NCBI RefSeq assembly: GCF_004339085.1
Contig: NZ_SMFX01000001.1
Span: 1,992,242 to 2,056,241, forward strand
Direction: 5' to 3'
DNA: 64,000 nucleotides
From: Thiogranum longum
GTDB taxonomy: Bacteria; Pseudomonadota; Gammaproteobacteria; DSM-19610
Shown here: positions 56,164 to 64,000 of the stretch, one piece after another
How the letters are laid out: each line of letters starts with the position of its first letter
Numbering within the stretch: position 1 is the first letter of the stretch
Position numbers and translations under genes: made by a program
The notes under the pieces: generated by a model
Told to the model about the DNA's origin: nothing
The model's database searches: none
What the model saw: the letters and a program-made list of their open reading frames with translations, nothing else

Positions 56164-56326
56164 GTCGAGGGGGTGTCCTGTTTCTGCCAGGTGTTGATAC
56201 AGCCGAGCATCGCAGACATTTTGCGGTCAAGCGAGCGACTGTCTGAGCAGTTTGCGCAACAACGCAAACTGCGAGTTTCGCGAGCGGGCAAATCATCACC
56301 TGGCAGAAACAGGACACCCCCTCGAC
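56164..56326. repeat. 163-bp inverted-repeat element (MITE-like)
   Basis: Terminal arms of 30 bp (56164-56193 and 56297-56326) are perfectly complementary and begin GTCGAGGGGG. Inside lies CAGTTTGCG/CGCAAACTG (56248-56256 with 56263-56271). I see no flanking target-site duplication. The rest of the 55860-56410 spacer is accounted for by this, the 191-bp element and the REP-like palindrome; the last 85 bp before rnfA hold no clear promoter. Confidence 0.85.
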
Positions 56327-56410
56327 GACCCTACCCCACGAACCAACAAACCACACCGGAAAAAGGCTGAAAAACTTCCCCAACTCACCCCATCGCAGTA
56401 CCATAAGCAA

Positions 56411-56992
56411 ATGACCGAAATCGCCCTCATCCTCGTCAGCACCGTGCTGGTCAACAACTTCGTGCTGGTGAAGTTCCTCGGCCTGTGCCCGTTCCTCGGG
56501 GTGTCGCGAAAACTGGAAACCGCCACCGGCATGGCACTCGCCACAACCTTTGTACTCACACTGTCGTCCGTGTGCGCCTACCTTGCCAATGAATACCTGC
56601 TGGCGCCGCTGGGGCTGGAATACCTGCGCACGATTACCTTTATCCTCGTTATTGCAGTGGTCGTACAGTTCACCGAGATGGTGGTGCATAAAACCAGCCC
56701 GGTGCTTTACCAGGTGCTCGGTATCTTTCTGCCGCTGATTACAACCAATTGTGCTGTTCTCGGTGTTGCACTGCTCAATGTTCAGCAGGATTTTGGTTTT
56801 GTCGAATCGGCTTTCTACGGGTTTGGCGCGGCAGTGGGCTTCTCGATGGTGATGATCCTGTTTGCCTCGATACGTGAACGAATTGCGGTAGCCGATGTAC
56901 CGGAGCCCTTCCAGGGTTCGGCCATTGCCCTGGTGACGGCAGGACTGATGTCGCTGGCGTTCATGGGGTTCTCCGGCCTGATCAAGGGTTGA
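56411..56992 (+). CDS. rnfA: Rnf electron transport complex subunit RnfA
   Basis: A 193-residue inner-membrane protein with six helices. Family blocks are [21 protein letters not shown], with the conserved cysteine of the membrane 2Fe-2S site, and [15 protein letters not shown] with the second one. RnfA and RnfE form the core through which electrons cross the membrane in the Rnf complex. The start is the ATG at 56411. rnfB follows 4 bp downstream. Confidence 0.97.
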
Positions 56993-56996
56993 ACAC

Positions 56997-57557
56997 ATGT
57001 TGACCGCAATGATTGCCATTGGCGTGCTGGCAGCCCTGTTCGGGCTACTACTCGGCTACTCGGCGATTCGCTTCAAGGTCGAGTCGGACCCCATTGTTGA
57101 CCAGATCGACGCGCTGTTGCCCCAGACCCAGTGCGGCCAATGCACTTATCCTGGCTGCCGACCCTATGCGGAAGCCATCGCGGCGGGTGAGGCCGATATC
57201 AACCAGTGTCCACCCGGTGGCGAAGCGACAATCCAGGCACTTGCCGATTTACTCGGCGTCGACCCAAAGCCGCTTAATGAAGAGCACGGCGAGCATACGG
57301 AAAAGAGGGTTGCCGTCATCGACGAACAAACCTGTATCGGTTGCACACTGTGTATTCAGGCCTGTCCGGTAGATGCCATTCTCGGTGCAGCCAAGCAGAT
57401 GCACACGGTTATTGCCGATGAATGCACTGGTTGTGAGTTGTGCCTGCCACCCTGTCCCGTTGACTGCATCGAAATGGTACCGGTGAAAAAGGATATCAGT
57501 CAGTGGAAATGGCCCTACCCGGAACCGGACCAGCCGGAAATTGCCAGCACGGGATAG
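56997..57557 (+). CDS. rnfB: Rnf complex ferredoxin subunit RnfB
   Basis: A 186-residue protein: an N-terminal membrane helix (3-25), a 4Fe-4S site formed by C46, C49, C54 and C71 (CGQCTYPGC...CPPGG), then two ferredoxin clusters in [12 protein letters not shown] and [12 protein letters not shown]. RnfB takes electrons from or gives them to soluble ferredoxin on the cytoplasmic side. Standard length for proteobacterial RnfB. Confidence 0.97.
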
Positions 57558-57594
57558 TTGTGGCCCGGTAATACCCTGCAACACGGCCAGGCGT

Positions 57595-57608
57595 TTGATC
57601 ACAATCAA
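57595..57608 (+). promoter_or_regulatory. FNR/DNR-type box upstream of rnfC
   Basis: TTGATCACAATCAA is a perfect TTGAT-N4-ATCAA palindrome in the rnfB-rnfC spacer. A possible -10, TATTTT (57629-57634), follows after 20 bp, two less than ideal. This suggests a second, oxygen- or NO-controlled transcript for rnfCDGE. Confidence 0.65.
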
Positions 57609-57653
57609 ACACGTCACGATTACCACAGTATTTTTCAGCGCCAACCCTGTACA

Positions 57654-59315
57654 ATGCGGCTGTACATGGCCACGCTGCTCGAAAAACCTGCGACCTTCCA
57701 CGGAGGTCTGCATCTGTCCGCGGAAAAAGCGCAGTCACTCACCGGACCGCTGAAACCCGCTCTCATACCCCGCCGCCTGTACGTCCCCCTCAGCCAGAAC
57801 ATTGGCGAACCGGCGGAAGCGGTTGTTAAAACCGGTAACCGGGTTTTGCGCGGTCAATTGATTGCCCGCTCTCTGGGCTATATCTCTGCGCCGGTTCATG
57901 CCCCGACCTCCGGAGTCATCAGCGACATTGGTGACTACCCGGTACCTCATCCATCAGGACTGTCTGCAACCTGTATTGTAATCGACAGTGATGGTGAGGA
58001 TCGCGTCGCGGACAGTGGTTTGAAAATGGAAAATGTCTTTCAGTCTGACCCCGCTGATATTCGTCAACGGGTTCGCGACGCCGGCATCGTCGGGCTGGGT
58101 GGCGCCGGTTTCCCGACAGCCGTGAAACTCAACCCCGGGCCAGACCACGTTGTCGATTTACTGGTCATCAATGGCGCCGAATGCGAACCCTACATCAGTT
58201 GTGACGAAGCGCTGATGTGCTGTCGGCCAAATGACATTATCGAAGGCATTCGTATCATGCGGCATGCGCTGCACGCAAAACAGGTGGTAATCGGCATTGA
58301 AGACAACATGCCCAATGCCATCGACTGCCTGCAAAAAGAACTGACGCGACTCGATGAAAAGGAAATCCGTATTACCCCGGTGCCGGCCCGCTACCCGGCT
58401 GGCGGCGAAAAACAACTGATCTATGCACTGACCGGCGAGGAAGTTCCAAGCCAGGGTTTGCCGATTGATATCGGCGTGGTCTGCCATAACGTTGGCACAG
58501 CGGCTGCGATTGCGCGCGCAATAAACAACGGCGAGCCGCTGATATCCCGCATTGTCACCGTTACAGGCGCAGGGATCCATCAACCCTGTAACCTCGATGT
58601 GCGTATCGGCACACCAATTGCCTCACTGGTCGAACAATGCGGCGGCTACACTGATGATGCCGCACGCCTGTTACTCGGCGGACCAATGATGGGCTTTGCC
58701 CTGCGCAATGACTCGGTTCCCGTCATCAAGACCAGCAATTGTATTCTTGCCGCCAACACAAAAGAATTACCGGATCCACCGCCGGCCAGTCCGTGTATCC
58801 GTTGCGCTCAGTGCACCGACGTCTGCCCGGCCAGCCTGTTGCCACAGCAGTTGTACTGGTACGCCTTTGCGCGTGACATGGAAAAAATCCAGGACTATAA
58901 CCTGTTCGACTGTATCGAGTGCGGGTGTTGCGCCCAGGTTTGCCCCAGCCACATTCCGCTGGTGCAGTACTACCGTTTTGCAAAAACCGAAATCTGGGAC
59001 ATGGAACGCGAGCGTGAAAAGTCTGACCTGGCCCGCCGGCGTCACGAAGCACGTCTGGAACGACTGGAACGTGAAAAGAGAGCCCTGGAAGAACGCCGCG
59101 CCCGCGCCCGCAAGTCGCTGGACAAAAAACCCAAAGTCGGCAACGCCGATGCCAAGAAATCCGAAATTGCAGCTGCACTGGCGCGCGTGAAAGCAAAGAA
59201 AACCGAGAGCAGCGATGTTGCGCCGCGTAACACCGATAACCTCACACCCGAACAACGGGTGAAGATCGACGAAGTCGAGCAACGCCGCAGCAGCAGCAAG
59301 CCCGACGGAGCCTGA
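57654..59315 (+). CDS. rnfC: Rnf complex subunit RnfC
   Basis: About 553 residues. It has an N-terminal barrel-like domain, an NADH/FMN-binding Rossmann domain with VGLGGAGFPTAVKL and VINGAECEPYISCDEALM, and two 4Fe-4S motifs, CIRCAQCTDVCP and CIECGCCAQVCP. The C-terminus is a charged, Arg/Lys/Glu-rich coil (from about 460). RnfC exchanges electrons with NADH. Starts at 57654 and 57666 are both possible and neither has a clear Shine-Dalgarno; a frame open from 57558 would run through the FNR box and lacks similarity. Confidence 0.95.
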   Translation: MRLYMATLLEKPATFHGGLHLSAEKAQSLTGPLKPALIPRRLYVPLSQNIGEPAEAVVKTGNRVLRGQLIARSLGYISAPVHAPTSGVISDIGDYPVPHPSGLSATCIVIDSDGEDRVADSGLKMENVFQSDPADIRQRVRDAGIVGLGGAGFPTAVKLNPGPDHVVDLLVINGAECEPYISCDEALMCCRPNDIIEGIRIMRHALHAKQVVIGIEDNMPNAIDCLQKELTRLDEKEIRITPVPARYPAGGEKQLIYALTGEEVPSQGLPIDIGVVCHNVGTAAAIARAINNGEPLISRIVTVTGAGIHQPCNLDVRIGTPIASLVEQCGGYTDDAARLLLGGPMMGFALRNDSVPVIKTSNCILAANTKELPDPPPASPCIRCAQCTDVCPASLLPQQLYWYAFARDMEKIQDYNLFDCIECGCCAQVCPSHIPLVQYYRFAKTEIWDMEREREKSDLARRRHEARLERLEREKRALEERRARARKSLDKKPKVGNADAKKSEIAAALARVKAKKTESSDVAPRNTDNLTPEQRVKIDEVEQRRSSSKPDGA

Positions 59316-59319
59316 ACGC

Positions 59320-60363
59320 ATGGAATTCCCGACTCGCAGCTCGCCTTACCTTCCCGTATCCAATGACGTGTCACGGCTCATGGTCAGGGTCATGCTGGCA
59401 CTGATCCCGGGCGCACTGGTGCTGTCCTGGTTTTTTGGCTGGGGTATTATTTTTAATTTACTGATTACAACTTCAACGGCCTTACTGGCCGAAGCCGCCG
59501 TATTGCAGTTACGCGGCAAGCCGGTACGACCTGCCCTGCTGGATGGCAGCGCGGCCCTGACCGGACTGTTGCTGGGATTGTCGCTGCCGCCACTGGCGCC
59601 CTGGTGGATACCTGTGATTGGTGCACTGTTTGCCATTGTGGTCGCCAAACAATTGTACGGCGGGCTCGGTTACAATCCGTTCAACCCGGCAATGATCGGA
59701 TTTGTCGTTCTGATTATTTCCTTTCCCTTGCAAATGACCCTCTGGTCACCACCAACCGGTATCGGCCAGGAAGGACCTGGATTCACCGAGACGCTACAGT
59801 TGGTCTTTTCCGGAAAGCCACCGGATGGTGAAACGCTTGACAGTATCACCATGGCCACGCCACTGGATGAATCAAAAACACAGAGCGGCCTGAACCTGAC
59901 CTGGGATGAAATTCTCAGCGACCCCCGTTTTGGCCATTACGGTGGCTACGGCTGGGAATGGGTTAACCTGGCTTTCCTGCTGGGCGGCCTGTGGCTCTGG
60001 AAACAACGCGCTATCCAGTGGCATATACCGGCCGGGATGCTGGGTGGCCTGTTCGTAATTTCGCTGATGTTCTATTTTGCCGATGCCGACAGCTATGGTT
60101 CGCCCCTGTTTCACCTGTTCAGCGGTGCCACCATGATCGGTGCCTTTTTTATTGCGACCGACCCGGTGTCAGCCGCCACCACACCGCGCGGGCGCCTCTA
60201 CTACGGCGCCGGCATCGGCATACTGGTATATATCATACGTACCTGGGGTGGTTACCCGGACGGTATTGCCTTTGCCGTACTGCTGATGAACATGGCAGCA
60301 CCTACCATCGATTACTATACAAAGCCGCGCGTATTCGGTCAGCGCGAGGAACAGGACGACTGA
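59320..60363 (+). CDS. rnfD: Rnf complex subunit RnfD
   Basis: A 347-residue membrane protein with about nine helices. The covalent FMN attachment site is in DSITMATPL (Ser/Thr-rich motif near residue 175). GYNPFNPAMIGFVVL and the closing ATDPVSAATTPRGRLYYGAGIG and GGYPDGIAFAVLLMN blocks are typical of RnfD. It starts 4 bp after rnfC. Confidence 0.96.
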   Translation: MEFPTRSSPYLPVSNDVSRLMVRVMLALIPGALVLSWFFGWGIIFNLLITTSTALLAEAAVLQLRGKPVRPALLDGSAALTGLLLGLSLPPLAPWWIPVIGALFAIVVAKQLYGGLGYNPFNPAMIGFVVLIISFPLQMTLWSPPTGIGQEGPGFTETLQLVFSGKPPDGETLDSITMATPLDESKTQSGLNLTWDEILSDPRFGHYGGYGWEWVNLAFLLGGLWLWKQRAIQWHIPAGMLGGLFVISLMFYFADADSYGSPLFHLFSGATMIGAFFIATDPVSAATTPRGRLYYGAGIGILVYIIRTWGGYPDGIAFAVLLMNMAAPTIDYYTKPRVFGQREEQDD

Positions 60364-60366
60364 AGC

Positions 60367-61005
60367 ATGAGTTATCGACCGGTCCTGGTATCGTCACTGT
60401 TCCTGTTTCTGTTTGCCGTGGTCGGCAGTGGACTGGTGGCATACACTCACGAGAATACTGTCGAACTTATACATGACAATGAGCGCCGTGCACTGCTGAA
60501 AAGTCTGAATGAACTGATCCCGACTGATCGCTACGACAACGATATTTTCCACGACATTCTCTATGTACGTCACAAGGATTTGCTGGGTACCGCCAAGCCG
60601 GTGCCCGTCTATCGCGCACGCAAAAACGGCTGGCCGGTTGCTGCCGTACTGGCACCTGTTGCACCGGACGGATACAACGGCAATATCCGCCTGCTGGTCG
60701 CCATCAAGCTGGATGGCACACTGGCCGGTGTGCGCGTGGTGCAGCATCGCGAAACTCCGGGCCTGGGTGACGGCATCGAGACCTCGAACTCGGACTGGAT
60801 ACTGGGGTTTAACGGAAAATCACTCGAAAACCCTGGCAAGGAGGGCTGGAAAGTAAAGCGCGATGGTGGTCAATTCGACCAGTTTACCGGCGCCACCATA
60901 ACCCCTCGCGCTGTCGTGAAAGCGGTGCGCAATGCTCTGTTATACTACCAGATACACGGACACGAGCTGTTTGAAGAACACCCCGGGGACACAACTGGAA
61001 AATGA
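60367..61005 (+). CDS. rnfG: Rnf complex subunit RnfG
   Basis: A 212-residue protein with one N-terminal membrane helix (8-27) and a periplasmic domain that carries covalent FMN at the Thr of FTGATIT (about 177). [10 protein letters not shown] and [11 protein letters not shown] are further family blocks. It overlaps rnfE by 4 nt (ATGA). Confidence 0.96.
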
Positions 61006-61688
61006 CTGACAAGCGCACCATTATTCGTGACGGTTTGTGGGACAACAACGTTGGCCTGGTACAACTCCTTGGCCTGTGCCCGTTGCTTGCTGTAACCGGC
61101 ACCTTTATCAATGGTCTTGGACTGGGGCTGGCGACACTGGTAACCCTTGTGGCATCCAATGTCACGGTATCGGCCATACGCTCACTGGTACGTCCCGAGG
61201 TGCGTATCCCCGTCTTTGTACTGATCATCGCTTCTATCGTTACCGTTATCGAACTGCTGATGAGTGCCTTCATGTATGACTTGTACAAGGTATTGGGGAT
61301 TTTCATTCCGCTGATTGTCACCAACTGTTCCATTATCGGGCGCGCCGAGGCATTTGCATCCAAGCACACTGTCAGCCAGTCTTTTCTCGACGGCTTTAGC
61401 ATGGGCTTTGGCTTCATGCTGGTACTGGTCACGCTTGGCTCGCTGCGCGAGATAATCGGCCACGGCACACTGTTTTCGCATGCACACCGGATGTTCGGGG
61501 ACCTGCTGCCCGATATCACTATCGTGTTTTCTGAACACTATGACGGGTTCCTGCTCGCTGTACTGCCACCGGGCGCCTTCATCGGGCTCGGTCTGCTGAT
61601 TGCCCTGAAAAACATTATCGACAAACGTGCACAAACACGTTCTGCAACGATCACTGTTACCACCCCGGTCGCACAAGCCAGTCACTGA
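61002..61688 (+). CDS. rnfE: Rnf complex subunit RnfE
   Basis: A 228-residue membrane protein paralogous to RnfA, with six helices. [21 protein letters not shown] and [20 protein letters not shown] carry the paired cysteines of the membrane iron-sulfur site; [20 protein letters not shown] follows. Last Rnf gene; nth begins at the very next base. Confidence 0.96.
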
Positions 61689-62324
61689 ATGAACAAAAAA
61701 AAGCGTGCAGAAATCTTCGCCCGACTGCGCAATGAAAATCCTCAACCCACGACCGAACTTCGTTACGGTAACCCCTTCCAGTTACTGGTAGCCGTAGCAC
61801 TGTCGGCACAGTCCACTGATGTCGGCGTCAACAAGGCTACGGAAAAACTGTTTAAAAAAGTGAAGACGCCGCAGGCCATGCTCAAACTCGGCGAGGAAGG
61901 GCTGAAGCAACACATCAAGACCATCGGACTGTACAACACCAAAGCCAGTAACATCATAAAGACCTGCAAGTTACTGGTGGAAAAACATGGCGGCAAAGTG
62001 CCTGAAGACCGCGAGTCGCTGGAAGCCCTGCCCGGTGTCGGTCGTAAAACCGCCAATGTTATTCTCAATACAGCCTTCGGCCACCCCACCATTGCGGTCG
62101 ATACACACATTTTCCGTGTTTCCAACCGCACCGGTATCGCGCCGGGCAAGCATGTTAATGAGGTGGAGCGCAAGCTCAACAAGTTTGTGCCGGACGAATT
62201 CAAACAGGATGCCCACCACTGGCTTATCCTGCACGGTCGCTACACCTGTATAGCCCGCAAACCCCGTTGTGGCAGCTGTATCATCGAAGACCTGTGCGAA
62301 TACCGCGACAAAACAGAAAACTGA
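61689..62324 (+). CDS. nth: Endonuclease III
   Basis: A 211-residue DNA glycosylase/AP lyase for oxidised pyrimidines. The helix-hairpin-helix ALPGVGRKTANVILN contains the catalytic Lys, VDTHIFRVSNR the catalytic Asp. The 4Fe-4S cluster ligands are in CIARKPRCGSCIIEDLC (spacing 6, 2, 5). Placement directly after rnfE is the same as in E. coli. Confidence 0.97.
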   Translation: MNKKKRAEIFARLRNENPQPTTELRYGNPFQLLVAVALSAQSTDVGVNKATEKLFKKVKTPQAMLKLGEEGLKQHIKTIGLYNTKASNIIKTCKLLVEKHGGKVPEDRESLEALPGVGRKTANVILNTAFGHPTIAVDTHIFRVSNRTGIAPGKHVNEVERKLNKFVPDEFKQDAHHWLILHGRYTCIARKPRCGSCIIEDLCEYRDKTEN

Positions 62325-62405
62325 CGCCAATTGGCGACAGGTAAAACTTGCAACGCGATCAATGAACTGAGTACTCTCTCACCCCGATTCACGGTGGAAG
62401 CGGAT

Positions 62406-62843
62406 ATGCTGTTTGGACAAGACCGGGACCAGCTGCGTGGCTATTACTGCAAAGCATGGCAAGCCCGCTGCAAGGGTATGCCACTGGACCCCCTGCAGGC
62501 CCAGATCATAAATGTGATCGAACAGCATCCGGAATACCAGCCTTTACTGGAAAACCCGGAACAGGCCCTTGGCCAGGACTATCTGCCGGAACTGGGTGAA
62601 ACCAACCCTTTTCTGCACATGGGGATGCACCTGGGTCTACGTGAACAGATCGATACCGACCGCCCGGCAGGGATTAAAAGTCTCTACCGGCAACTGCTCG
62701 ATCAGTGCCCCGAGGCCCATGAACTGGAACACAAAATGATGGAATGCCTGGCCGAAATGATCTGGCAGGCACAAAAAAACGGAACCGCGCCGGACGAAGC
62801 GCACTACCTGGACTGCCTGCAGTCCCTGCAGAAGGAACGTTAA
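62406..62843 (+). CDS. DUF1841 family protein
   Basis: A 145-residue protein of the DUF1841 family: MLFGQDRDQLRGYYCKAWQ, PLDPLQAQIINVIEQHPEYQPLLENPE, and the highly conserved NPFLHMGMHLGLREQIDTDRPAGI. Function unknown, probably cytosolic; three conserved histidine/arginine blocks hint at ligand or metal binding. I chose the ATG at 62406, where family similarity begins, over a TTG at 62331. Confidence 0.87.
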   Translation: MLFGQDRDQLRGYYCKAWQARCKGMPLDPLQAQIINVIEQHPEYQPLLENPEQALGQDYLPELGETNPFLHMGMHLGLREQIDTDRPAGIKSLYRQLLDQCPEAHELEHKMMECLAEMIWQAQKNGTAPDEAHYLDCLQSLQKER

Positions 62844-63002
62844 CCTGAAATTCTGTCAGATGGCTATTCTGAAACTTTTTCACTACCCACTGGTCGTACC
62901 GGCTGTTGCTTGTAATCACAGATGGCACCGAGACTGCCAGTCCAACCACGGCGGCCCGACGGACGCCGTTATATGTTAAAAGCCTTAAGGAGGCATAACA
63001 CA

Positions 63003-63458
63003 ATGTCAAAATCCACTTCAATGAAACCCCTGGCCCTTGCAATGGGTGCAGCCTTTGTTACCTCACTGGCAGGTGCTTCCGTTGCCAATGCGGCCGAAAA
63101 TCCTTTTGGTATGACCGAACTGCCCAGCGGCTACATGGTTGCTGACAGTGACATGAAAGAAGGCAAATGCGGCGGCAGCATGAAGGAAGGCGCCGAGAAA
63201 ATGAAAGAAGGCAAGTGCGGCGGCAGCATGAAGGAAGGCGCCGAGAAAATGAAAGAAGGCAAGTGCGGCGAAGGCATGAAAAAAACCAAAGAAAAAATGG
63301 AAAAAGAAGGCAAGTGCGGTGAAGCAAAATGCGGCGCTAACAAGGCCAAAAGTATGAAGGAAGGCAAGTGTGGCGAAGGCAAGTGTGGTGAAGGCATGAT
63401 GAAAGGCCACGAAAAAGCCGACAAAATGAAAGAAGGCAAGTGCGGCGGCAGCAAGTAA
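63003..63458 (+). CDS. hvfA: HvfA-type RiPP precursor with seven EGKCG motifs
   Basis: A 151-residue precursor peptide. Residues 1-30 are a signal peptide (cleaved ANA|AE), followed by ENPFGMTELPSGYMVAD, the conserved HvfA leader. The remainder is Lys/Glu/Gly/Met-rich and carries EGKCG at 53, 69, 85, 102, 120, 125 and 144, with eight cysteines in all. In the HvfA family, a DUF692 enzyme turns the EGKCG cysteines into oxazolone/thioamide groups that bind copper. AAGGAGG lies ten bases before the ATG. The matching maturase gene follows 12 bp downstream. Confidence 0.88.
   Translation: MSKSTSMKPLALAMGAAFVTSLAGASVANAAENPFGMTELPSGYMVADSDMKEGKCGGSMKEGAEKMKEGKCGGSMKEGAEKMKEGKCGEGMKKTKEKMEKEGKCGEAKCGANKAKSMKEGKCGEGKCGEGMMKGHEKADKMKEGKCGGSK
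63153..63248 (+). repeat. Two tandem 48-bp repeats inside hvfA
   Basis: Two 48-bp units (63153-63200 and 63201-63248) differ at a single base and each encodes 16 residues with one EGKCG. A third, shortened copy starts at 63249. Such repeats allow quick gain or loss of modification sites. Confidence 0.9.
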
Positions 63459-63470
63459 GCCGTATCTACC

Positions 63471-64000
63471 ATGAAAATGTCCCGCTACCCGGTTAACGGA
63501 GCAGGACTGGGCCTGCGGCGGACCCTGATGGGTCCGCTGACAGACCACCCCCCCGAACAGGTCGGCTTCTATGAAGTCGCCCCGGAGAACTGGATCGGCA
63601 TGGGTGGCCGCTGGGGCAAACAGTTCCGCGCTTTCACCGAGCGCTACCCTTTCGTTTGTCACGGACTGTCACTTTCCATTGGCAGCCCGTCACCACTGGA
63701 CGAAACTTTTCTCTACCGTGTAAAGCGATTCCTGGATGAACACCGGATTCGTGCCTATACCGAACACCTGAGCTACTGCAGCGACGACGGTCACCTCTAT
63801 GACCTGATGCCCATCCCGTTCACTGAAGAAGCTGTATATTACGTAGCTGAACGCATCCGCCGTACCCAGGACATTCTCGAGCGACGTATCGCCATGGAAA
63901 ATGTGTCCTATTACGCAGCACCCGGCAAGGAGATGGAGGAAATTGATTTCATCACTGCCGTCCTCGAAGAGGCCGACTGCGATCTGCTTCTCGACGTAAA
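63471..64000 (+). CDS. hvfB: HvfB: DUF692/MNIO RiPP maturase (partial, cut by window end)
   Basis: Open from the ATG at 63471 to the window edge, about 176 residues. The sequence is a multinuclear non-haem iron oxidase (DUF692): [84 protein letters not shown] and [10 protein letters not shown]. His and Glu residues in the CHG, TEH and MEN motifs are candidate iron ligands. It should oxidise cysteines of the HvfA peptide. The partner HvfC (DUF2063) would be expected just beyond the window. An internal ATG at 63477 is an alternative start. Confidence 0.93.

Follow-up and report, generated by a model that had tools for sequence, protein, structure and literature searches.

At the right end of the window, by which we mean the whole stretch of 64,000 nucleotides analysed here, a short cysteine-rich gene is followed by a gene for a DUF692-type maturase. 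This arrangement raises the question of whether the locus encodes a complete copper-binding RiPP system and whether the core of its peptide is expanded and has recently grown by duplication of repeats, as an earlier note on this DNA had proposed. By direct reading, the first gene (63003..63458, + strand) encodes an hvfA-type precursor of 151 amino acids with 8 Cys, and is preceded by the ribosome-binding site AAGGAGG (62987..62993, + strand), of which the GGAGG is kept in an alignment of 15 upstream regions. The earlier note had counted seven EGKCG motifs and eight Cys, and both numbers are right, with the correction that the eighth Cys sits in an EAKCG motif. The repetition of EGKCG is not due to chance, since 5000 shuffles of the mature sequence yielded a mean of 0.011 and a maximum of 1 such motif, as compared to 7 in the actual sequence.

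Residues 1-30 of the precursor (63003..63092, + strand) look by eye like a Sec signal peptide ending at ANA/AEN, and AlphaFold2 placed a helix at residues 9-27 with low confidence. The signal peptide is followed by the leader block AENPFGMTELPSGYMVADSD (63093..63152, + strand), visible in an alignment with relatives, in which NPF is present in 67 and [SGN]GY in 69 of 73 related precursors; the signal-peptide-like start and the HvfA leader block of the earlier description were thus both recovered. The precursor scored 42.1 bits against the KCGExKCG_twice model NF050137 (cut-off 19.5), whereas its score of 30.1 bits against the strict HvfA equivalog model NF050188 fell below the cut-off of 95, and we therefore place it in the wider EGKCG family rather than with the HvfA equivalogs. 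A Pfam search of the precursor gave no match. The repeated EGKCG, the richness in Cys and the signal peptide, the last judged by eye, are those of an EGKCG captophorin precursor.

The maturase gene hvfB, of the MNIO type (DUF692/MbnB_TglH_ChrH), starts 12 nt past the stop codon of hvfA, directly after the precursor as had been noted, and runs from 63471 to the window end at 64000 on the + strand, where it is interrupted. Extension into the genome DNA past the window edge gave a full length of 286 amino acids (to L002:3573) and showed that hvfA, hvfB, hvfC and hvfX are consecutive. The presence of hvfC (DUF2063) and of a DoxX-type gene further to the right had been suggested as a check, and both were found past the edge: hvfC at L002:3566-4342, with a start codon picked by hand, and hvfX at L002:4423-5013. 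The genomic one of the two outcomes that the earlier note named as refuting, a lack of DUF2063 downstream, thus did not occur. All three products scored over their NCBIfam cut-offs, HvfB with 454 bits against NF003818 (cut-off 360), HvfC with 340 bits against NF050145 (cut-off 142; PME type 1) and HvfX with 239 bits against NF050144 (cut-off 80). The Pfam models agreed, with 358 bits for HvfB against PF05114 (cut-off 25), 74 bits for HvfX against PF07681 (cut-off 23.6) and scores above the cut-offs of PF09836 and PF22106 for HvfC. A DoxX-type gene is frequent but not obligatory in EGKCG captophorin or Buf_EGKCG-oxazolin clusters.

The maturases of bufferin (Buf1/Buf2) and methanobactin systems belong to the same enzyme superfamily, and the window HvfB obtained 270 bits against the BufB model NF050167 and 44.7 bits against the MbnB model TIGR04159. 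Both values are below the respective cut-offs of 310 and 325, in contrast to the HvfB score. A bufferin system would combine a BufB-type MNIO with a DUF2282 precursor or one with 6 or 12 Cys, whereas the window precursor carries EGKCG repeats and has no DUF2282 match, since it has no Pfam match at all. We consider it highly improbable that the locus encodes a bufferin or methanobactin system instead of an EGKCG system.

Instead, the complete hvfABCX operon very probably encodes an EGKCG-type copper-binding RiPP, a captophorin. What is directly visible of this reading is the gene content and order, the motif repeats, the active-site motifs and a near-identical tandem repeat in the core; the identification of an HvfA/HvfB-type system was borne out by the NCBIfam scores and the gene content. 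The window HvfB contains RR at positions 16-17 and ERDF at 249-252, which correspond to R15, R16, D249 and F250 of FonB, reported to influence selectivity and catalysis, and its DVNN and DTHG motifs fit the HvfB residues N175, D242 and H244, all of these residues being matched by motif and not by superposition. Of 78 ORFs from relatives, 77 had ERDF and every one had DTHG. Gene order was similarly constant, with hvfC immediately 3' of hvfB in 79 of 80 named loci. A relative of nth was located upstream of hvfB in 41 of the 80, indicating that the neighbourhood is widely kept. Ahead of the operon in the window (56252-62843) are a DUF1841 gene and genes that read like those of endonuclease III and an Rnf electron transport cluster. 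The source genome is a single contig of 2.9 Mb, listed as 100% complete, and the closest named relatives are metagenome bins, Thiohalobacter first and several Thiogranum.

In the excerpts of the literature considered here, three characterised systems are similar. Fontiphorin (FonABC) of Fontimonas thermophila, of the captophorin class, likewise consists of an EGKCG precursor, an MNIO with matching Arg-Arg and Asp-Phe motifs and a DUF2063 partner; it carries seven 5-thiooxazoles, comparable to the eight candidate sites in the window precursor, binds up to four Cu, and its fragment FonA67-80 contains a modified EAKCG (PMC13097082). The fon cluster is described there as minimal, with MNIO, partner and precursor only, whereas the window operon adds hvfX. 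Oxazolin (HvfABC) of nontypeable Haemophilus influenzae shares the HvfB and HvfC families and the EGKCG motifs; six modified groups and a mixed-valent diiron cofactor are reported for the system (PMC13419390), whereas the window precursor, as noted, misses the strict HvfA cut-off. MmrABC of Microbulbifer has EGKCG repeats and a conserved leader, with 5 to 8 Cys in MmrA between strains, and all six Cys of one MmrA are modified with a loss of 4 H each (PMC12538549). The spacing differs: motifs in the published modified peptides are mostly paired, and the studied MmrA has two-Cys cassettes, whereas several window motifs are single, in one-Cys units of 16 residues, which counts against the preferred reading, as does the missed strict HvfA cut-off. 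A beta-helix, proposed for 17-residue repeats with two motifs (PMC12452194), gained no support, although it may still form: an AlphaFold2 model built with 7 sequences gave low-confidence coil with a mean pLDDT of 41.8.

By analogy to these relatives, HvfA would be made with a signal peptide, HvfC would recognise or present the leader, and HvfB would oxidise each Lys-Cys pair to a 5-thiooxazole, removing 4 H each time; this would probably affect most, if not all, of the eight Cys. The exported product would hold Cu(I) and so buffer copper outside the cytoplasm, and might, as the earlier note suggested, be of value to copper-sensitive Fe-S proteins; HvfX, of the DoxX type, is presumably a membrane protein. 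PMC13097082 reports a revised oxazolin structure, with 5-thiooxazole; NCBIfam still labels the modification as oxazolone/thioamide. The peptide might mainly serve against another metal or redox stress, such as gold or oxidative stress, with copper as a secondary ligand, and for this speak the DoxX neighbour, gold-induced operons and roles beyond copper discussed in parts of PMC12452194, and the remark in an excerpt of PMC13097082 that metal specificity needs fuller assessment. Since the EGKCG products described in these excerpts bind Cu, we regard such a primary role as unlikely and retain copper buffering as the probable function.

We also examined the growth of the core. TRF identified an in-frame tandem array with a 48-bp unit (MKEGKCGGSMKEGAEK) in 2.5 copies (63153..63270, + strand; 98% matches), which corroborates the two near-identical coding repeats reported earlier. 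Units 1 and 2 are identical at 47 of 48 bases; the one exception is a synonymous change in a Lys codon. The incomplete third copy equals unit 2 at 21 of 21 bases. In the alignment, the second copy is absent from the nearest relative, L003, whose HvfB is 92% identical to that of the window. Between the two full copies, 15 of 16 third positions are the same, compared to 72% identity at hvfB third positions between L003 and the window; together with the absence of the copy from L003 this makes the duplication look recent, although 16 codons are a short yardstick for dating. Duplication after the split from L003 is the simplest reading of these sequences; L003 may instead have lost the copy, or gene conversion may have homogenised the two. 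The claim of recent growth is in agreement with these data.

Whether the core should be called expanded was assessed in a set of precursors from related loci. From 89 precursor ORFs, 10 duplicates were removed to leave 79, and the exclusion of 6 more gave 73; four of the latter had their start cut off (L023, L066, L076, L093) and in two the leader regex matched an upstream stretch (L016 and L094, which have 12 and 5 Cys, respectively, beyond the leader). By our rule, 9 of the 80 named loci lacked a precursor ORF, in 4 of them because the contig begins at hvfB. The number of core Cys ranged from 2 to 12 with a median of 6, and was 4-12 in 68 of the 73 precursors, confirming that repeat numbers vary among relatives. 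The window core with 8 Cys is above the median but inside this range; 20 of the 73, the window's included, had at least 8 (21 of 75 if L016 and L094 are added), so that the growth is real but the term expanded is not a fair one. For the window row the script began at an internal Met, giving 145 and not 151 amino acids, which did not affect its Cys count. Five Nitrosomonas precursors (L034, L042, L044, L046, L057) had two core Cys only and, at what may be former motif sites, sequences like EGKDDG, and their cores have apparently decayed; 5 to 7 core Cys were kept in three other Nitrosomonas loci (L040, L049, L052). The precursor at L073:3361-3990 contained seven tandem EGSCS and two EGKCG motifs.

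Tandem arrays were found in 59 of the 73 precursor genes, as compared to 2 of 72 hvfB, 1 of 71 hvfC and 1 of 42 nth genes at equal settings. Some of the arrays had short units of 9-18 bp, the repeat period was not constant across genomes, and in many of them the repeated unit was peculiar to that genome. These patterns would be consistent with changes in core length that involve entire motif-carrying units, through in-frame slippage or through duplication. On a tree of 69 HvfB sequences (4 of the 73 rows had no HvfB ORF), the Cys number required at least 38 changes, within the reach of 200 label shuffles (mean 42.9, minimum 37), although the tree was a quick one with 25 of 66 inner branches weakly supported. 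Being close to the shuffled mean, this number suggests that Cys number holds little phylogenetic signal at the depth of the tree. Such turnover and the varying unit lengths could simply reflect neutral slippage in a low-complexity gene, with a copy number of the 48-bp repeats that has no effect on fitness. Against this, the window array is in frame with its Cys kept, and core Cys are held at 4-12 in most precursors; we rate neutrality as quite possible, at a little under an even chance.

Upstream of hvfA we identified a promoter-like element, GAAACTTT-N13-GGTCGTA (62871..62898, + strand), conserved in the genus, which we take to resemble the promoters of extracytoplasmic-function sigma factors. 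In the genus and its near kin, all 14 of the 14 hvfA upstream regions considered had a GGAAACTTT-like block separated by 13 nt from a GGTC-like one, as matched by a permissive regex written after viewing the alignment and with L008 excluded for too little upstream DNA; the variants were GGAACC in two, GCAAC in one and TGTC in one. A strict pattern yielded 7 matches in 17 genus genomes, one in each of 7 genomes and all just upstream of hvfA, with a single match in the source genome, and the same pattern backwards yielded 0 matches in the 17 genomes. The strict form was absent from 8 of the 15 genus genomes with HvfB over the cut-off. With a looser pattern, 15 of 72 upstream regions matched, compared to a mean of 0.7 and a maximum of 3 in base-shuffled controls and to no match on the reverse strand. 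Of the 15, 11 belong to the genus or its near kin and 4 do not; most regions outside the genus group lack the element. To look for a cognate sigma factor, we scanned the loci of the genome's 14 Sigma70_r2 matches for the element; this gave six hits, all with 4 mismatches, and none was accepted.

A profile search of the genome revealed a second precursor-like gene about 559 kb from the hvf operon (C1:1496793-1497206, equal to L112:4794-5207). Its product of 137 amino acids scores over the cut-off of the KCGExKCG model and has the same type of leader, followed by EGKCGEGKCG, an EF-hand pair (PF13202, 42 bits) and again EGKCGEGKCG. Lanmodulin and other EF-hand NCBIfam models scored far below their cut-offs against this protein. 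The gene is flanked by HlyIII and YchJ-like genes, and the hvf operon contains the only MNIO gene and the only DUF2063 gene of the genome. PMC12452194 describes EF-hand fusions (Buf_EGKCG/EF-hand_5) among precursors with variable repeats, as well as genomes like this one with several precursors and one MNIO-partner pair, for which modification in trans or, alternatively, unmodified precursors are considered. The EF-hands described there lie C-terminal to a short EGKCG domain, whereas the second precursor here has EGKCG pairs on both sides, an arrangement of which a limited literature search found no description.

Sandwich relatives, defined by two EF-hands with at least one Cys-Gly on each side, were present in 11 of 17 genus genomes, with 3 to 5 Cys-Gly motifs each, and lay far from hvfB in the single-contig genome and on a different contig from it in the others. 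HvfB exceeded the cut-off in 11 of 11 genus genomes with a sandwich gene and in 4 of 6 without, which makes co-occurrence in the genus weak evidence, as most sandwich-less genomes also have HvfB. Among 369 genomes sampled across the class, in which the 30 of 41 matches with a locus were read, 11 genomes had a sandwich gene, all among the 117 with HvfB over the cut-off; six of these genes adjoin hvfB and five do not. No block comparable to the hvfA element emerged when 11 upstream regions from EF-hand precursors were aligned. In three genomes (G063, G203, G350) an EF-hand precursor is located away from HvfB, and each of these has a second, weaker MNIO. At L016:3287-3979, an MNIO-linked precursor has an EF-hand pair inserted between EGKCG blocks; modelled alone with AlphaFold2, it gave a mean pLDDT of 43.4, too low to be informative. 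The distribution of the EF-hand precursors fits modification in trans. It is conceivable, if rather doubtful, that the sole HvfB/HvfC pair modifies the second precursor in this way, which would produce a periplasmic protein with copper-chelating arms joined or released by calcium.

Taken together, the operon is an ordinary, well-described member of the widespread EGKCG captophorin family, and provides a clean, complete case of a copper-buffering RiPP family in a Thiohalobacter/Thiogranum-like gammaproteobacterium. The core of the finding is already in print, since variable Cys numbers in EGKCG precursors (PMC12538549; PMC12452194, with up to 58 Cys), seven modified Cys and up to four bound Cu are reported in the excerpts of these papers and of PMC13097082. 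The Cys number turns over nearly as fast as shuffled labels while the leader and the enzymes can still be recognised, and a dose test that relates tolerance to the number of sites would follow naturally from this. The EF-hand sandwich precursor is the only part that could add to the published picture.
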